Source of the DNA: a virus
Virus record (IMG/VR): IMGVR_UViG_3300020395_000127
Span: 1 to 21,749 of that record
DNA: 21,749 nt
Reading direction: 5' to 3' (one strand)
The notes beneath the pieces were generated by a model. The model was not told where the DNA came from and did no database searches. It saw nothing but the letters and a program-made list of their open reading frames with translations. A program made the translations under genes and the position numbers. Shown here piece after piece: positions 1,403-14,416 of this stretch. The first letter of the stretch is position 1. Each line of letters opens with the position of its first letter.

Positions 1403-2131
1403 ATGCCATTACCAAAGGTCGTAGCACCTACGTTTGAACTGAAACTAATTTCTACACCAAAGACAATTAAATACAGACCATTCCTTGTAAAAGAGGAAAA
1501 GGCATTGTTGATTGCTATGGAGAGTGGAAATGAAAAAGATATTACTGCCACAATTAAAGATGTACTCAAATCCTGTGTACTGACTCGTGGAGTGAAGGTA
1601 GATGATCTACCAAGTTTTGAACTAGAATATTTGTTTTTGAATATTAGAGGAAAATCTGTTGGTGAGACTGTTGAATTATTAGCAACATGTAGTGATGATA
1701 ATGAAACAAAGGTTCCTTTGAGTATCAAAATGTCGGACATCAAACTACATGTCCCTGACGATCATAACGATACTATTGATCTTGGAGGTGGTATTTCTAT
1801 CAAAATGAAATATCCATCAATGCAAGCATTTTTAGACACTAATTTCAATGTTAGTCAGACTAAAGATGATGAAAGAATTGATAAGGCATTCAAGGCAGTT
1901 GCTGATTCTGTTGATACTATTTTTACAGCAGATGAGGCGTGGTCTTCAAGTGATTGTACTAAAAAAGAATTAGTATCCTTTATTGAACAGTTGAGTTCTG
2001 CACAGTTTCAAAAGATTGAAGGATTTTTTGCTACTATGCCTAAGTTACAATATAAAACAAATGTAAAAAATCCCAATACAGATGTTGAGACTGAAGTACT
2101 AATTGAGGGATTATCAAATTTTTTCGCATAA
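1403..2131 (+). CDS. gp26: Baseplate hub/tail-assembly protein, gp26 family
   Basis: This 242-aa protein begins MPLPKVVAPTFELKLIST and continues with KYRPFLVKEEKALLIAME, the N-terminal signature of the T4 gp26 baseplate family (T4 gp26 is 208 aa). The body is mixed alpha/beta with no membrane segment. In T4 gp26 is needed for assembly of the central hub, and members of this family are often viewed as chaperone-like rather than permanent virion parts. The gene has a late promoter 21 bases upstream. Its last codons (TCA AAT TTT TTC GCA TAA) contain two overlapping -1 slippery heptamers. Its stop shares a base with the next start codon, so termination-reinitiation or a frameshift fusion with gp51 are both possible. 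Confidence 0.88.
   Translation: MPLPKVVAPTFELKLISTPKTIKYRPFLVKEEKALLIAMESGNEKDITATIKDVLKSCVLTRGVKVDDLPSFELEYLFLNIRGKSVGETVELLATCSDDNETKVPLSIKMSDIKLHVPDDHNDTIDLGGGISIKMKYPSMQAFLDTNFNVSQTKDDERIDKAFKAVADSVDTIFTADEAWSSSDCTKKELVSFIEQLSSAQFQKIEGFFATMPKLQYKTNVKNPNTDVETEVLIEGLSNFFA
2116..2125 (+). other. Candidate -1 ribosomal frameshift site at the end of gp26
   Basis: In the gp26 frame the bases read A AAT TTT (2116-2122) overlapping T TTT TTC (2119-2125). Both fit the X-XXY-YYZ slippery pattern. Slipping back one base continues as ...F-R-I-M-L-Y-H with no stop, straight into the gp51 frame. Four bases downstream is a 6-bp inverted repeat, AATGCT (2130-2135) with AGCATT (2146-2151) and a 10-base loop; it is weak as a stimulator. 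None of the other three TAATG junctions here (6197, 7766, 10456) has such a heptamer. Confidence 0.5.
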
Positions 2132-2334
2132 TGCTATATCATACCAGCATTGATGCAATGTTAGAGGCAAATTTTGCCCTGATGCAACATCATAACTGGA
2201 GTTTGAGTGATATTGAATCTATGATTCCTTGGGAAAGGGAAACTTACGTGAACTACCTTATCAATTTTCTAGAAAAACAAAAACTAGAAAGGAAAAACGC
2301 AGAAGCAGCCGCAAAAAATGCAAACTCCTGGTAG
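2131..2334 (+). CDS. gp51: Baseplate hub assembly catalyst, gp51-like small protein
   Basis: This 67-aa protein lies directly after gp26 with a TAATG overlap and in the -1 frame. Marine T4-like phages name the small gene at this place gp51; T4 gp51 is much longer (about 249 aa), so homology over its whole length is not implied. Visible features are a helical N-terminal part, then MIPWERETYVNYLINFLEKQ, and a charged Lys/Glu/Ala tail. An aromatic-proline motif before a short helix is reminiscent of the C-terminal segments of tail-assembly chaperones made by frameshifting (lambda gpGT, P2 E+E'). It may therefore be translated alone by reinitiation, or as the extension of a gp26-gp51 fusion. Its last 17 bases overlap the next gene. 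Confidence 0.7.
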   Translation: MLYHTSIDAMLEANFALMQHHNWSLSDIESMIPWERETYVNYLINFLEKQKLERKNAEAAAKNANSW

Positions 2335-4411
2335 ACGAGTAGAACCACAAACATCCATGCTTCCATTGGAACGTAGGATGGATAGTCTTGAAAGGAGATT
2401 TATAAATTTTTCAAATGCACAGCAATTAGATGAAGAAACTTCGACTTCGATAAGAGGTTTGGGTAGGATTGTTCTAGAAATGGAACAGATGCAAAATAAT
2501 ATGGAGGCGATGCAGAAGGAGATAAGAAGAGATATAAGAGAAAGAGCAAAATATTTCAAAGAAGAACAAAAATTACTGAAGAAGGATTTAAAGAATACTG
2601 AAGATTTCAAAACTGCAGCTTTATTTGATCTACGTAAGATAATAGGACTTTTTGGGTTTGCTGTAGCAGCAAATGAATTATCTCAAGGTGATATTGGAGG
2701 TGCTATACAAGGTGTAGGACTTGGTATAGGTTCATTCTTACCAGAAATTACCACTGCTGTTGTTGGAATATTAGCTGCCAAAGGTCTCATTGGTGGTGGT
2801 ATGATGGGTGGTGGTATGGTTGCTGGTGGCGGAAGAAGATTATTGGGTGGTGGTATGATGGGTGGTGGTAGGATGGCTGGTGGACTTGGACTGTTGGGAG
2901 GTAAAGGTAAAGGTATACTAGCACTAGCAGCTTTAGGTGGGTTATTGTTAACTGGTGGTGCTCTTGCTGGTGGAGGAAATACAAGTAGAATGCAAGTGGG
3001 TGATAAGAAGATTGATGATGGTAATGATGTATTAAATCGATCTGATACTCTAAGGTTTAGAAGACAATTAAATAGATTTGGTGCTATTTTGGACGATATA
3101 GGTAAAGAATCTACAACTGCTGACAAAGGTATAGGTCAAGTTAATGAAAAATTTGAAAAAGATTTGAAAGATATCTCAAAATCACCCCCAGATAAAACTA
3201 AAAAGTTCAAAAGTACAGAAGTTGAACTACCAGATGAGGTAGAACCACAGGAATTTAATAAAGGTGGAAAAGTTCCTGGTAGTGGTAATAAAGATACAGT
3301 TCCTGCAATGCTGACTCCTGGTGAAGTTGTCATGAGTAAACCAGCAGTTGATAAGATTGGTGCTGATAAGCTTTTAGCAATGAATGCTGCAGGTGGTGGA
3401 ACTAATAGACCAAGTTATGATACTCTAGGATATCGGTTTGGACAAGTAAACCCAAACATGTTAATTACAGGAGCCACAACATTTACTGATAAAACAACTG
3501 ATAGTACAAAAAAACGAGGAATGCTAGATAAATTCTTTAATCGTGACTTTGATTCATTTAAAGAAAAAAATCTTGGTAGAGGTTTGCCAGGATTAAGTAT
3601 GCAGACAACTGAGAAATTCAGAACCACTGATAAAGACAGCACTCTAGAAGGTGAAAGAATTCTTACAGAGGATATTGCTAGTGTAGGAATGCCTGATATA
3701 ATGGAACATCAGGAAGATCTGATGAGAAGAATAAACGCAGTCAAGGGATTTGAAGATAAGACAATAGAGGATGTTATAAATGGAACAGTTAATATGGATA
3801 CCCGACAATTTACACGACTTCTCAACAGGAGTGATGCTGCGAGAGCAACAGAAAAGAAACGAGAAGAAGCAAGAAAACTTGATATAAAAGAAAATATAGA
3901 TACGTCATATAGAACGCTGCCAGCATTCCAAGGTGGTGGTTTAGTTCTAGGAAAGACACCAATGCAACAGGTGAGTGAATTAAGAGATGAGAGGAGAGAG
4001 ATTCTTCGTAATCAAGTTGATGGTAAAATGAGTAAAGAGGATAAGAAGAGATATAAGATTATAACTAAAAAGTTAAACCAACTTTCAGATGAAATGAAGG
4101 CAGACAAAAAGGTTCCTGGTTATACCAAAATTTCCACACCTACTGCACCTATAGTACCAGAAACTAAAAATATAAAACCAATAGAAACTAAAAATATAAA
4201 ACCAATAGAAACTAAGGAAGTACCCTCTAGTATGATTGCTCAACCTATCATTACTAACATTCCTGGTAAAACTACAAATATGCCACCTCCAGCCCCAAGT
4301 GGAGATGAGTTTGGTAGTGAAAAGTTCGTTTCAATAAACACACGTTTTCAAGGTTCTATTGATAAACTTGATTCTGCATATACACTAAACAGTTACGCTG
4401 CGTTACAGTAA
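2318..4411 (+). CDS. Putative tape-measure/tail structural protein (first of two)
   Basis: This 697-aa protein has a charged, coiled-coil-prone N-terminus (roughly residues 15-95), a hydrophobic helical stretch (about 97-160), a Gly/Met-rich segment (160-195) and a second hydrophobic helix (about 198-222). Near residues 313-355 comes NKGGKVPGSGNKDTVPAMLT, followed by PGEVVMSKPAV. The GG-x-V-x-G-x-G-x-x-DTVPAMLTPGE motif is common near the C-termini of phage tape-measure proteins. The C-terminal 300 residues are charged and low in complexity, with a Pro/Thr-rich tail. Position after gp26-gp51 and before gp27 matches that of T4 gp29, the tape measure, but no clear gp29 sequence match was seen. 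The start overlaps gp51; Met14 (2357) is an alternative start. Confidence 0.65.
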   Translation: MQTPGRRVEPQTSMLPLERRMDSLERRFINFSNAQQLDEETSTSIRGLGRIVLEMEQMQNNMEAMQKEIRRDIRERAKYFKEEQKLLKKDLKNTEDFKTAALFDLRKIIGLFGFAVAANELSQGDIGGAIQGVGLGIGSFLPEITTAVVGILAAKGLIGGGMMGGGMVAGGGRRLLGGGMMGGGRMAGGLGLLGGKGKGILALAALGGLLLTGGALAGGGNTSRMQVGDKKIDDGNDVLNRSDTLRFRRQLNRFGAILDDIGKESTTADKGIGQVNEKFEKDLKDISKSPPDKTKKFKSTEVELPDEVEPQEFNKGGKVPGSGNKDTVPAMLTPGEVVMSKPAVDKIGADKLLAMNAAGGGTNRPSYDTLGYRFGQVNPNMLITGATTFTDKTTDSTKKRGMLDKFFNRDFDSFKEKNLGRGLPGLSMQTTEKFRTTDKDSTLEGERILTEDIASVGMPDIMEHQEDLMRRINAVKGFEDKTIEDVINGTVNMDTRQFTRLLNRSDAARATEKKREEARKLDIKENIDTSYRTLPAFQGGGLVLGKTPMQQVSELRDERREILRNQVDGKMSKEDKKRYKIITKKLNQLSDEMKADKKVPGYTKISTPTAPIVPETKNIKPIETKNIKPIETKEVPSSMIAQPIITNIPGKTTNMPPPAPSGDEFGSEKFVSINTRFQGSIDKLDSAYTLNSYAALQ
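2792..2870 (+). repeat. 25-bp direct repeat encoding a Gly/Met-rich segment
   Basis: Bases 2792-2816 and 2846-2870 are identical and lie 54 bases (18 codons) apart, in frame. They encode the GGGMMGGG part of the first tape-measure-like protein, so they look like a local coding duplication. Confidence 0.8.
4160..4207 (+). repeat. Two perfect 24-bp tandem repeats in coding sequence
   Basis: Units 4160-4183 and 4184-4207 are identical, and a 7-base third start follows. Each encodes ETKNIKPI in the linker of the first tape-measure-like protein. The pattern fits slippage-driven length change in a flexible linker. Confidence 0.85.
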
Positions 4412-4412
4412 T

Positions 4413-6197
4413 ATGACTGAACAATTATATAACATAGCAAAAGATCAAAATGAAACCTCAAATGGTTTGCTGAATGATATTAGAAGAAGATCTTCTTTGA
4501 ATAGAATGTATGAGAAGCAATCTCTTGCATTGAAGAAGAAGTTAGTAGAAGAAAGAAAGAAAGCATATGATGCTGCATCAAGAAAAGAAGGTGAGGGAAA
4601 GGGTGGTTTAGGTATTTTAAGAGATCTATTTCTTCTAAGATTTCTACGTGGTCGTGGTCGTGGTGGTGGTGGATTTGGTAGAGGTGGTGGTAGACCACCT
4701 GTAGGTCCAAGAGGTGGTCTTGGTATATCACCAAGAATAACACCTAAGAATAATATTGTACCTTTTAGTAGAGGTAGAGTACCTACAAGATTAGGAGGTC
4801 TTTCGAGAGTAGGACCATTAGCAGTATTAGGAACGGGATTAGATTTTACGAGTAGACTAGGATCTGGACAGAATGTGTTACAAGCATCACTTGGTGCTGG
4901 TGGTGGATTAGCAGGTGCATTAGCAGGTGGAGCAAAAGGTGCTGCTCTTGGTTCTTTTGCTGGACCTATTGGTACTCTTATTGGTGGTATTGGTGGTAGT
5001 ATTTTAGGTGGATTTGCTGGTGGTAGTATAGCTGATTTATTATCAGGTGCTAATCGTAGAAGAGGTCAAGAGCTGGAACGTGTGACAAAGATGTCTAAGA
5101 AGACAGAATTCTCAAAAGCTTTAGATGATTTTGATGTAGTGTTGGATAAGTTTGAGGGTAATACTGCACCCATGCTGAAGTCAATGAATGATGAAGTTGA
5201 AGAAGAGATTCCTGATGAACTTCCAATTATACCTAAAACACCATTCTGGACTCCTGGTAAAATTGCTGGTGTTGTAACTCTAGCAGCAGCAGCAGTAGTA
5301 GCAGCTGTTGCAATTCTTGCACCAGAACCATTTGCAGATGTTCCTGCAATTGCTTTTTTTACACGGCAACTTGCTAAATTTGGGATCAAAAATCCTGGTT
5401 TCAAACCATTAATCAAGCCAAATGTCGGGGTAAAAAAACCATTCTTCAACTGGCAATCACTTTTTCAAAAGAAAAAGATATTCACACCTCGTACAACACC
5501 AGTAACTACTAAAACACCAGTAAAAACATATAGTAGACCTATTGAAACACCAATAAAAACAAATACTAGATTTCCTACATCATCAAGTGTCAACTCACCA
5601 ACTGTCAACCCATCAAGAAATATTAGTAGTAACATACAGGCTGGTAAATCTACTCTAAAAAATATAAAGAAGGGTAATAACCCATGGGATGTTGATCTTA
5701 AAAATATTGAATTGGATCCTAAATCACCTTTTATTAGATCACAGGTTGAAAGACAAACTGGCACTCTTATTAAACCATTTACTCCCTCTCCTCCCAGTAA
5801 ACTAATTCAAGGATCTCCTACTAATTTCCCTACTGGACAAGCAAGTGAACCACTAAGAAAAATTATTAAAAAAATAACAAAAGAAAAACCAGAACTTTTT
5901 CAAACTCAAATACCGAAACCTAAACAAGAAGGTGGTAGAGTAGAGGCAGGTAGACCATATATCGTTGGTGAGGTAGGTAAAGAATTGTTTGTACCTGATG
6001 CTGGTGGTAAGATCGTTCCTAATGATGATTTACCAAGTTCAAATCTATTGGTTATAAACAAAGAACCTGAAACTGTTGTAGTACCACAGGTAACTGGATC
6101 TGGTGGGTCATCAGACACACCAATTGCATCTAAGACTGTCAATGCATATGATGTTGTCGCTAAATATGCTCAGATGACTGGGTTGTTTACAGTTTAA
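4413..6197 (+). CDS. Putative tape-measure/tail structural protein (second of two)
   Basis: This 594-aa protein starts two bases after the previous stop. Residues 1-60 are charged and coiled-coil-prone. Residues 68-105 are a Gly/Arg-rich tract (LRGRGRGGGGFGRGGGR). Residues 150-215 are Gly/Ala-rich and hydrophobic, and 283-318 form a strongly hydrophobic Ala/Val helix. Residues 360-425 are Thr/Pro/Lys-rich. Near 506-545 the protein has EGGRVEAGRPYIVGEVGKEL then FVPDAGGKIVPN, the RPYIVGE-x-G-x-ELFVP motif typical of C-termini of tape-measure proteins from many tailed phages. Its length is close to T4 gp29 (590 aa), making it the better gp29 analogue of the two. How the two share the work is unknown. 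Confidence 0.68.
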   Translation: MTEQLYNIAKDQNETSNGLLNDIRRRSSLNRMYEKQSLALKKKLVEERKKAYDAASRKEGEGKGGLGILRDLFLLRFLRGRGRGGGGFGRGGGRPPVGPRGGLGISPRITPKNNIVPFSRGRVPTRLGGLSRVGPLAVLGTGLDFTSRLGSGQNVLQASLGAGGGLAGALAGGAKGAALGSFAGPIGTLIGGIGGSILGGFAGGSIADLLSGANRRRGQELERVTKMSKKTEFSKALDDFDVVLDKFEGNTAPMLKSMNDEVEEEIPDELPIIPKTPFWTPGKIAGVVTLAAAAVVAAVAILAPEPFADVPAIAFFTRQLAKFGIKNPGFKPLIKPNVGVKKPFFNWQSLFQKKKIFTPRTTPVTTKTPVKTYSRPIETPIKTNTRFPTSSSVNSPTVNPSRNISSNIQAGKSTLKNIKKGNNPWDVDLKNIELDPKSPFIRSQVERQTGTLIKPFTPSPPSKLIQGSPTNFPTGQASEPLRKIIKKITKEKPELFQTQIPKPKQEGGRVEAGRPYIVGEVGKELFVPDAGGKIVPNDDLPSSNLLVINKEPETVVVPQVTGSGGSSDTPIASKTVNAYDVVAKYAQMTGLFTV

Positions 6198-11023: not shown

Positions 11024-11809
11024 ATGGCTGGAATACCCGACATACAAGCACATAAGATCTACATTGGTTTAGAAGAACCACAAATAGATGATAGATCACT
11101 GAATAATTTGAATGGTGATAGACCTTATGAAGGTACTCTAGCTGTTGCTGGTCCTAGTTATCTTGGAGGTCACAGTGGTAGTGGTAATGGTACGTTGAAT
11201 GTTGGAACTGATATAGATGAGTGGTCACCAAATGTCAGTGGAAGAGCAGTTGATATAGAAGGTGATGTTAATATAGTGGGAGAACAAGGACCAGACCATG
11301 TATACATTGATGGTAATGTGTATGTTACTGGTACTGTCGATTGTTTATCAACTGGTAGATTAGAATCAAGACACCAAGAGGCAGATGGTAGACCAAAACC
11401 ATTTGATATGGTTCACCCATCTAAAGGTAAAGGTAACAGACTAAGGTATGCCTGTATTGAGGGACCAGAGGTTGCTGTATATTATAGAGGAAGACTGAAG
11501 GATAGTAATATTATACAACTACCTTCTCATTGGAAGGATCTAGTACATGCTGATAGTATTACTGTACAGATACAGAATATTGGAGTACCACAGATGATAA
11601 CTGTGGAGAGTTTTGATAACGAGAAGATAGTCTTAGAATCTAATACCATACCTGAGACTCCTATTGATTGTTTCTACCATGTGTATGGTGAGCGTAAGGA
11701 TGTCAATCATTTAGTTGTAGAGTATGAAGGAGATACTTGGGAAGACTATCCAGATCCAGACTATGATGATCCTCAATATAAGACAGGAGTTAATACTAAG
11801 ACTACGTGA
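11024..11809 (+). CDS. Structural protein with EGPE-type C-terminal domain
   Basis: This 261-aa protein starts one base after the previous stop. The N-terminal half is Gly-rich and beta-prone, with VDIEGDVNIVG and VYIDGNVYVTGTVD resembling fibre strands. From about residue 124 comes PFDMVHPSKGKGNRLRYACI followed by EGPEVAVYYRGRL, then IIQLPSHWKDLVHADSITVQ. This block is familiar from cyanophage tail-fibre and structural proteins; its exact role is not established and it differs from the S74 intramolecular chaperone. The C-terminus is acidic (EDYPDPDYDDPQ). It is likely a minor baseplate or fibre part. Its second half is paralogous to the small gene at 12344. Confidence 0.7.
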   Translation: MAGIPDIQAHKIYIGLEEPQIDDRSLNNLNGDRPYEGTLAVAGPSYLGGHSGSGNGTLNVGTDIDEWSPNVSGRAVDIEGDVNIVGEQGPDHVYIDGNVYVTGTVDCLSTGRLESRHQEADGRPKPFDMVHPSKGKGNRLRYACIEGPEVAVYYRGRLKDSNIIQLPSHWKDLVHADSITVQIQNIGVPQMITVESFDNEKIVLESNTIPETPIDCFYHVYGERKDVNHLVVEYEGDTWEDYPDPDYDDPQYKTGVNTKTT

Positions 11810-12357
11810 AAAAACTGATTTATATTGAGGATAATTTTTTATCCCCTGAACTTTGTGAACACTTCATCAATCTATCTAAAGCAAATAATAAAGAAATGCC
11901 TTATGGTAACTCTACTAGAGGTGGAGATACCTATCTTACTACTGTTGAGTGGAAAAATCATACAGCAGTATATCATGGTGGGAACGTAGATCCTACTGTC
12001 ATTCCACCAGAGGATGACGTAGTTATGAGAGTAACTAATCTTTGCAAGTCTTTTGATACTACAGCAAACTTAGATTACGTTGGTGTCATACGATGGCCAG
12101 TTGGTACATTTATGAAACCACATGTTGATGATAATAACAAGCACAACCCAGATATATTTGCAGCAATGCTATATCTAAATGATGATTATACTGGTGGTCA
12201 TACCTGCTTTGAGCACATAGAGGTAAAACCTGAGAAGGGTAAACTTATAGTATTCTCAAATGCTGAGTATTTACATTATGTTTCTCAGGTTGAAAAGTCA
12301 GAAAGATTTGTGTTGTCATTCTGGTACAATCATGCTATACTAGATGAAAATTCATAA
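11806..12357 (+). CDS. 2-oxoglutarate/Fe(II)-dependent oxygenase
   Basis: In this 183-aa protein the prolyl-4-hydroxylase-like double-stranded beta-helix is clear. The iron ligands are H106 and D108 in KPHVDDN and H157 in YLHYVS, with R167 in SERFVLSFW to bind 2-oxoglutarate. MLYLNDDYTGGHTCF (121-135) is the usual conserved strand-turn. Such enzymes hydroxylate proteins or small molecules and are frequent in marine T4-like phages, but their targets are generally unknown. Translation begins at GTG overlapping the previous stop (GTGA), with AAGACAGGAG upstream as a possible binding site. Lying inside the structural run suggests a virion protein such as a neighbour as substrate; that is inference. 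Confidence 0.88.
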   Translation: MKKLIYIEDNFLSPELCEHFINLSKANNKEMPYGNSTRGGDTYLTTVEWKNHTAVYHGGNVDPTVIPPEDDVVMRVTNLCKSFDTTANLDYVGVIRWPVGTFMKPHVDDNNKHNPDIFAAMLYLNDDYTGGHTCFEHIEVKPEKGKLIVFSNAEYLHYVSQVEKSERFVLSFWYNHAILDENS

Positions 12358-12857: not shown

Positions 12858-13160
12858 ATGACAGAAGAAAAGATCAAAAGTCTTTGTTATACTAAAGAAG
12901 AAGTTGATCTGATGATAGAGGCTGCTGTTGCTGAAGCAAGACGTATAGATGAAGAGTCTATGCGTAAGCATAATAGAGAAGCAACTATCATTAGCATGAT
13001 TCTTGGATTCACATGTCTAGCATTATTTTTAGATGGATTACTTCGCATACTTGGTATCATTCCACCATTCGCAGGTCTTGATGTTAATATCATCGATCAG
13101 ATTGTGGAGAAGGTTGAAACAGATATATATCCATTAGTACATAAAATACCTAGGATATGA
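12858..13160 (+). CDS. Small single-pass membrane protein
   Basis: This 100-aa protein has a charged helical N-terminus (residues 1-41, including KEEVDLMIEAAVAEARRIDE), one hydrophobic helix at about 42-68 (ATIISMILGFTCLALFLDGL then LRILGII) and a C-terminal part of about 30 residues beginning PPFAGLDVNIIDQIVEKVET. With positive charges before the helix (RKHNR) the N-terminus should stay in the cytoplasm. It has no lipobox and no holin hallmark beyond size and one helix; a holin role is not supported. The ATG follows the preceding stop by four bases, and its own stop overlaps the halogenase-like start (ATGA), so the three genes behave as one operon. Confidence 0.75.
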   Translation: MTEEKIKSLCYTKEEVDLMIEAAVAEARRIDEESMRKHNREATIISMILGFTCLALFLDGLLRILGIIPPFAGLDVNIIDQIVEKVETDIYPLVHKIPRI

Positions 13161-14416
13161 AAATTGCTGTTGTGGGTGCAGGTAATGCAGGTTGCATTTC
13201 TGCACTTTCTGCTTTAAAAATTTTTAGGCAGTTTGATATTCAAGGAGAAGTAGAGATATATTATGATCGAAATGTACCAATTCAAAAAGTTGGTCAAGGT
13301 AATAGTAGGGTAGCACCAAAATTAACATGGGAATTTATAGAAGATTGGGATGATTTTGTAGAGAAAACAGGTACTACTATAAAAACTGGAATATTATATC
13401 ATAATTGGGGAACTAAAAATGAGTGGAATTTTCATCCATTTGGAAGGATGAATGGTGAAGGGTGGGATCCTAAAAAGTTATCCGAGTTTTATTCTGACCC
13501 TGTTCAGTCAGACTGGTTTCATAACGCATTTCATTATATTCCGAAAAAATTCTCTGAGTATATTTTAGGTCTTAAGCAATTTAAAACATTTGAAAAAACT
13601 ATTGTAGATCCTGAAAAAGAAATAGATTCTGATGTTATTATTGATTGTAGGGGAAAATCTGATGATATAGATTATGAAAAGGTTATAAACCCTATTAATA
13701 GTGTTTTGATAGCGAGAAAAGAGGGTGCAGATCCAGATTTGAAATGGAGTGGTCATATTGCTACTCCACATGGATGGACATTTGAAATACCTAATACTGA
13801 TAGTGTATCTTATGGATATTTGTATAATAGTAATATTACAACTAAAGAGGAGGCAACAGAGGATTTCTTAGAAAGATTTAATCTATCATCAGTTGATTTT
13901 GATATGACTTTTGATCCTTACTGGGCAAAAAATCCTTTTGTTGGTGAAAGAACTTTTGTAAATGGAAATAGACATGCTTTTATAGAACCACTTGAGGCAA
14001 ATTCTTCAGATATTCATGGTAATGTTGCATCTGCTGGATTAAAATCTTTTCTTGGACATCAGAGTAAGGAAATAACAGTCAGAAGATTACAATATAAAAT
14101 GTGGAAATGGGAAAGTTTCTTTTTGTGGCATTATCGGGCAGGTTCTGCGTTTGATACTCCTTTTTGGAATTATGCAAAAAATTTGGATTATAGGGAGGAA
14201 GCTAAATCTAGATGTATGGAAACATTTGGTGGAGGTGAGGAGGAAAAGTTTTTTGGTGTAGAGAAATTATGTAGAGTTGGTAATTATGAATTGTTTCATA
14301 ATGGTCTTAGTTGGGATCATTCTACAAGGTTGTCTGATAAGAAATACTTAGTTCAAATACCAGATAGTCATCCTCGTAAGAAGTTTATTGAAAATGATAG
14401 AAATATAGAGGTATAA
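13157..14416 (+). CDS. Flavin-dependent tryptophan-halogenase-like protein
   Basis: This 419-aa protein (bacterial enzymes are usually about 500-540 aa) starts with an FAD-binding GxGxxG (VVGAGNAG, residues 5-12). QKVGQGNSRVAPKL (43-56) sits where halogenases have GVGEATIP. K76 in TIKTG aligns with catalytic K79 of PrnA, and E280 in FIEPLE aligns with PrnA E346. The halogenase W-x-W-x-I-P motif appears as GWTFEIP (206-212) with Phe for the second Trp, followed by SYGYLY. FAD-dependent C-H halogenation, or a related oxidation, is therefore plausible; the substrate is unknown. Tryptophan-halogenase-like genes are known in marine T4-like phages. It is coupled to the membrane-protein gene by ATGA and needs an outside flavin reductase; none is seen here. 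Confidence 0.82.
   Translation: MKIAVVGAGNAGCISALSALKIFRQFDIQGEVEIYYDRNVPIQKVGQGNSRVAPKLTWEFIEDWDDFVEKTGTTIKTGILYHNWGTKNEWNFHPFGRMNGEGWDPKKLSEFYSDPVQSDWFHNAFHYIPKKFSEYILGLKQFKTFEKTIVDPEKEIDSDVIIDCRGKSDDIDYEKVINPINSVLIARKEGADPDLKWSGHIATPHGWTFEIPNTDSVSYGYLYNSNITTKEEATEDFLERFNLSSVDFDMTFDPYWAKNPFVGERTFVNGNRHAFIEPLEANSSDIHGNVASAGLKSFLGHQSKEITVRRLQYKMWKWESFFLWHYRAGSAFDTPFWNYAKNLDYREEAKSRCMETFGGGEEEKFFGVEKLCRVGNYELFHNGLSWDHSTRLSDKKYLVQIPDSHPRKKFIENDRNIEV

Follow-up and report, generated by a model that had tools for sequence, protein, structure and literature searches.

The gp26 and gp51 genes of this phage very probably constitute a single recoded gene that encodes two tail assembly chaperones comparable to G/GT of lambda. 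The window, i.e., the whole stretch of 21,749 nucleotides analysed here, comes from an uncultured marine T4-like phage, with AG-345-D19 as the best named match (65% at the amino acid level). The original prediction that gp26-gp51 is a -1 frameshifting chaperone pair is supported by evidence of a comparative nature only, i.e., by the conservation of a slip heptamer, by the open -1 frame, by loci in which gp51 lacks a start codon, and by a fused homologue in Tevenvirinae. Profile matches, of which those to tape measure proteins are weak, place a tail tube gene ahead of gp26 and gp51 and tape-measure-like genes behind them:

406 to 1368, + strand: tail tube protein gene (PF23849 Phage_TTP_2, 1e-12; phrog_45 tail tube, 5e-24).
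1403 to 2131, + strand: gp26 family gene of 242 aa, the proposed short tail-assembly chaperone, TAC-N (PF12322 T4_baseplate, 4e-66; phrog_150, 6e-72).
2131 to 2334, + strand: gp51 ORF of 67 aa, with its ATG within the overlap TAATG and preceded by no Shine-Dalgarno motif (phrog_634, 9e-21).
2318 to 4411, + strand: tape-measure-like gene of 697 aa, immediately 3' of gp51 (weak phrog tape measure matches, the best named one at 5e-6).
4413 to 6197, + strand: second tape-measure-like gene, of 594 aa (phrog_794 tail length tape measure, 1e-11).

The two tape-measure-like genes that had been foreseen downstream of gp51 are found there on weak profile matches, and they follow one another in the region 2318-6197. 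A tryptophan-halogenase-like gene is located among the tail genes (window positions 13157-14416; PF04820, 4e-25), and a gene encoding a 2OG-Fe(II) oxygenase adjoins them (11806-12357; PF13640, 8e-14).

We infer both the slippage and its efficiency as follows. Most ribosomes would stop at the gp26 stop codon, yielding the short TAC-N of 242 aa, and a minority, with tRNA-Phe on the TTT and TTC codons of 2119-2125, would slip back one base and re-pair on TTT TTT. The slipped ribosomes would pass the gp26 stop and read gp51, yielding the longer TAC-NC, of about 310 aa. The pairing of an mRNA GAGGG element with 16S rRNA just 5' of the site and a stem-loop just 3' of it probably increase the slippage. 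Of the two products, the short one would coat the tape measure protein, and the long one would recruit the tail tube subunits.

In the gp26 frame, the end of the gene reads TCA AAT TTT TTC GCA TAA, and it contains both of the overlapping heptamers that had been pointed out in this frame, with their first bases 13 and 10 nt 5' of the stop codon:

2116 to 2122, + strand: A AAT TTT, the other heptamer in this frame, restricted to certain lineages (28 of 226 unique loci).
2119 to 2125, + strand: T TTT TTC, proposed -1 slip site, with a homologous T TTT TTN in 221 of 225 unique loci and invariant third bases.

Only the latter stood as the putative slip site; A AAT TTT was rejected as the main one, and it is probably not used as such, since it is found in only those 28 loci. 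In-frame heptamers of the XXXYYYZ type occur 37 times among the 6539 codons of the window, and TTTTTTN occurs six times; thus a lone heptamer near one stop codon, which can arise by chance, is weak evidence and it is conservation that decides. None of the other TAATG junctions of the window has a heptamer, as had been stated. The slip sequence of lambda is G GGA AAG, unlike the T TTT TTC found here.

Relatives were gathered with gp26 and gp51 as queries and from phage records. Once identical junctions had been dropped, the set comprised 226 loci in which gp26 is closed, one of which belongs to a Tevenvirinae phage that carries the two genes on opposite strands; leaving this phage aside gives 225 non-identical loci, and T TTT TTN is present at the homologous Phe-Phe position in 221 of them. 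The slip site is also found in isolates, i.e., in Kyanoviridae, Sinorhizobium, Pseudomonas, Stenotrophomonas, Pootjesviridae, Aeromonas, and Vibrio phages. The codon that precedes TTT TTN can be AGT, GAT, AAT, TCT, GCT, GGT, or ACT, and its third base is T in all 221 loci; likewise, the first Phe codon is always TTT (221/221). These two are the only gp26 columns with an invariant third base across all loci. By parsimony on the gp26 tree, each of them has undergone 0 third-base changes, while the codon before the Phe pair has undergone at least 28 amino acid changes; on the same tree, the median gp26 column shows 60 third-base changes and the other Phe columns show 20-47. The second Phe codon is TTC in 84% of the loci, compared with 29% expected from codon usage. 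The joint probability of the heptamer conservation, about 1e-45, ignores relatedness, and the parsimony count is the fair figure. Thus, across the aligned junctions the heptamer is kept well beyond the synonymous expectation, as anticipated for a functional slip site.

Among the four exceptions, L257 differs from a neighbour of 99% identity (L256) in having five Ts instead of six, and this shorter run may be a sequencing error. In three distant phages, Vibrio D509, Dickeya Kamild, and Vibrio YC (L088, L090, L094), an overlapping -1 frame C ORF begins at TAATG without a T6 heptamer, which is perhaps replaced in these phages by coupling or by another slip site. Scans of viral_contigs yielded no relatives of the gp26 proteins of Vibrio D491s and D509.

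The position of gp51 in an open -1 frame was also borne out, the frame being open from 22 nt 5' of the gp26 stop codon:

2125 to 2331, + strand: 69 codons (RIMLYHTSID...) that a slipped ribosome would read in the -1 frame, free of stops in all 221 loci and with a coding signature in the loci that lack a start codon.

Joined to gp26 up to the slip, this segment gives the predicted fusion of 310 aa (TAC-NC). From the slip site, the -1 frame is open for 55-69 codons in each of the 221 loci, and so the relatives have no -1 frame stop codons between the slip site and gp51; in 204 of the 221 loci, a conserved P-W-E motif lies 32 codons from the slip. In 84 of the 221, the stretch from the upstream -1 frame stop to codon 13 past the slip contains none of the start codons ATG, GTG, and TTG in the -1 frame. 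Near-cognate codons such as ATT, which are rare starts, are present in most of these start-less loci, but their use as starts across so many lineages is not regarded as credible. In 46 start-less loci, in which gp26 ends one codon past the slip, the changes at positions 1, 2, and 3 of the -1 frame codons (codons 2-17) are distributed as 58:45:145, and therefore these codons are read as protein ahead of any start codon. On the evidence of the sequences, gp51 is not a free-standing gene in many relatives. In 36 loci (e.g., L138, L232, L144), the gp26 stop codon is located eight codons past the slip, and about 25 nt are coding in both frames.

The alternative that best survives these data is that gp51 is a separate short protein produced by termination-reinitiation at TAATG, with no fusion and with the T run as an incidental feature. 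It would account for the ATG of the window that overlaps the gp26 stop codon, and for the two genes annotated in the GenBank records of P-SSM2, S-PM2, and others, as well as for an early ATG in the -1 frame of 107 of the 221 loci. Nevertheless, a Shine-Dalgarno (SD) 4-mer precedes none of these 107 ATGs, since the slip site takes up that place, and reinitiation explains neither the 84 loci without any start codon, whose codons evolve as those of a protein, nor the third bases of the heptamer, which never change, nor a Tevenvirinae gp51 that is known solely in fused form. As a replacement for frameshifting it is very improbable. Re-initiation may, however, coexist with the frameshift in the ATG-bearing loci, and since gp51 has its ATG at TAATG in the window, coupled re-initiation could also yield free gp51 here.

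The proposal that gp51 is a frameshifted extension of gp26 is consistent with the arrangement of the T4-type phages. Those of E. coli have no such slip site. In the Tevenvirinae phage, the products of the two opposite-strand genes have 207 aa (gp26) and 250 aa (gp51), and gp51 matches the gp26 family from end to end, its C-terminus also matching the gp51 family. The profile of the gp26 part matches both Tevenvirinae proteins, and that of the -1 frame segment alone matches residues 209-250 of Tevenvirinae gp51 (3e-8) and not the gp26 of the same phage, which is devoid of the C part. The predicted frameshift product aligns with Tevenvirinae gp51 without gaps across the junction, where NFFRIMLYH is placed over DVFKLILNP. 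The models of gp26 and Tevenvirinae gp51 present their structural elements in the same order, with extra C-terminal helices in gp51. Tevenvirinae gp51 thus reads, at the level of sequence, as a hard-wired fusion of a gp26-like protein and gp51. Foldseek searches in BFVD linked the model of Tevenvirinae gp51 to gp26 proteins and also to the 'Tape measure chaperone' of phage Moon (E 1e-3). It seems rather probable that the gp51 of the marine T4-like phages is only the frameshifted tail of gp26, produced under a dnaX-like signal, and that in the T4 branch a hard-wired second gene on the opposite strand, arisen by duplication and fusion, replaced the recoding.

Two elements flank the slip site in the window:

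2105 to 2110, + strand: GAGGGA, SD-like element that begins 14 nt 5' of the slip heptamer, with an excess of anti-SD pairing.
2126 to 2156, + strand: stem-loop directly 3' of the heptamer, GCAUAAUGCU / AGCAUU-G-AUGC (z -1.23 alone).

Across relatives, a GAGGG-like core begins 13-15 nt 5' of the heptamer. In 130 representatives, the pairing of this region with the 16S tail is -6.93 compared with a synonymous expectation of -5.59 (SD of the mean 0.14), and such an excess was absent from 22 control windows within gp26. The element is not universal among the loci.

Concerning the stem-loop, the 6-bp inverted repeat AATGCT/AGCATT that had been noticed (2130-2135 and 2146-2151) forms part of a longer stem of 10 bp, interrupted by one bulge, that spans 2126-2156 and follows the heptamer with no spacer. 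The hairpin had been called weak, and for the window this holds, since a z of -1.23 (40 nt) is by itself not exceptional; the folding of 2119-2190 gives a z of -2.40. Among the 130 representatives, the downstream folding compared with shuffles has a mean z of about -2.0, with 55% of the values below -1.5, while the controls range from -0.25 to -0.53. A single consensus hairpin for all clades was rejected, and pairs were counted within clades because the stem shifts its register between them. In the P-SSM2-like clade, 90.5% of the cells pair, compared with at most 42% when the register is slid, and one stem pair appears as U-A, G-C, and A-U; in a second clade, double changes are observed in three stem pairs. 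These compensatory changes thus belong to two clades other than that of the window. As in the case of the SD-like element, the stem-loop is not universal among the loci. Both putative stimulators appear well supported for the group and, due to the modest stem-loop of the window, less so for the window.

The -1 signal of E. coli dnaX consists of an SD-like element about 10 nt upstream, a slip heptamer, and a downstream stem-loop, and the proposed signal resembles it, with the SD-like element at a position that corresponds to that of the dnaX stimulator and a stem-loop that is strong in several clades but modest in the window. However, dnaX uses A AAA AAG and its frameshift gives a shorter product, whereas the slip proposed here gives a longer one.

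The conserved core is a homopolymer of six Ts, and thus RNA polymerase might slip on it, producing an mRNA with one extra U that puts gp51 in frame; the difference of one T between the 99%-identical contigs L256 and L257 fits such a proposal. However, six Ts are short for transcriptional slippage, and the seventh position is C far more often than predicted (84% against 29%), which keeps the run short. Moreover, the SD-like element is a translational signal, and L257, with one T fewer, is in the wrong frame. This alternative is slightly less probable still than reinitiation. The least probable one, that the needs of the gp26 protein or of codon usage alone account for the conservation of Phe-Phe and its codons, agrees with the invariance of Phe-Phe in gp26 but appears already refuted at the sequence level by the 20-47 third-base changes of the other Phe columns, against 0 here, and by the preceding codon, which holds its T through 28 amino acid changes.

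Regarding the function that frameshifting would serve, the AF2 model of gp26 has a pLDDT of 86.5, and the best solved match of its N-terminal domain (residues 1-86) with VIA-align is the HK97 tail assembly chaperone 2ob9, with a Z of 7.8, i.e., under 8, and an rmsd of 4.0 over 84 residues, followed by 3fgx (7.7), 3klu (7.0), 5ir0 (5.2), and then 4.3. The top structural match is the family predicted from gene order, and with this Z and length it is no more than suggestive. The sequences of gp26 and Tevenvirinae gp51 gave no match in the PDB, and the model of Tevenvirinae gp51 gave no chaperone match there. The T4 gp26 and gp51 proteins have been listed among the hub assembly chaperones (PMC3004832).

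Frameshifted pairs of this kind are already known, and thus the window represents a further member. The TAC-N genes of T4-like phages are known to contain poly-T slip sequences (PMC12846349, citing Vladimirov et al., 2022), and in some T4-like phages a short gene is accompanied instead by a longer one that is already fused (PMC10885494, citing the same work, i.e., Vladimirov, Gautam and Davidson 2022, Virology 566:9-15), which is how Tevenvirinae gp26 and gp51 look here. To judge by these citing papers, the gene pair of that work is presumably 26/51, and the case of the marine T4-like phages is probably known too. A direct description of a cyanophage gp26-gp51 frameshift was not found in the literature searched, where Vladimirov et al. 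(2022) is represented by the papers that cite it. The loci without a start codon, the counts of third-base changes, the SD-like element, and the covariation within the stem-loops were measured in this analysis.

As in lambda G/GT, the pair is placed between the tail tube and the tape measure genes, with a first ORF that has a (here putative) -1 slip close to its end and a second ORF that would serve solely as a C-terminal extension (Xu, Hendrix and Duda 2004, as cited in PMC10885494). However, gp26 is larger, and the two systems are compared by arrangement and not by sequence relation. The Vandenendeviridae / Andersonviridae, with phage Adele (PMC12846349), share with the proposed system a -1 frameshift at a T-rich motif, GTTTTT in their case, and a downstream -1 frame that is always open and without an independent gene; they belong to other phage families, whereas the loci described here are distinguished by the invariant T TTT TTN and the SD-like element.

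This interpretation would tie gp26/gp51 to the lambda-type chaperone switch and offers a working interpretation for two "baseplate hub" genes of most sequenced cyanomyoviruses and of many uncultured marine relatives. It would also make gp26-gp51 a clean test of how evolution moves between recoding and gene fusion, and it implies that public records mis-annotate the second half of the pair. In Synechococcus phage ACG-2014e, the gp51 segment is unannotated (L262, KJ019054.1, 1912-2092), and in Syn19 it appears as a truncated 'hypothetical protein' (L263, GU071106.1, 1965-2102). Among 60 sampled phage records, about a quarter have one feature only under the gp51 segment.
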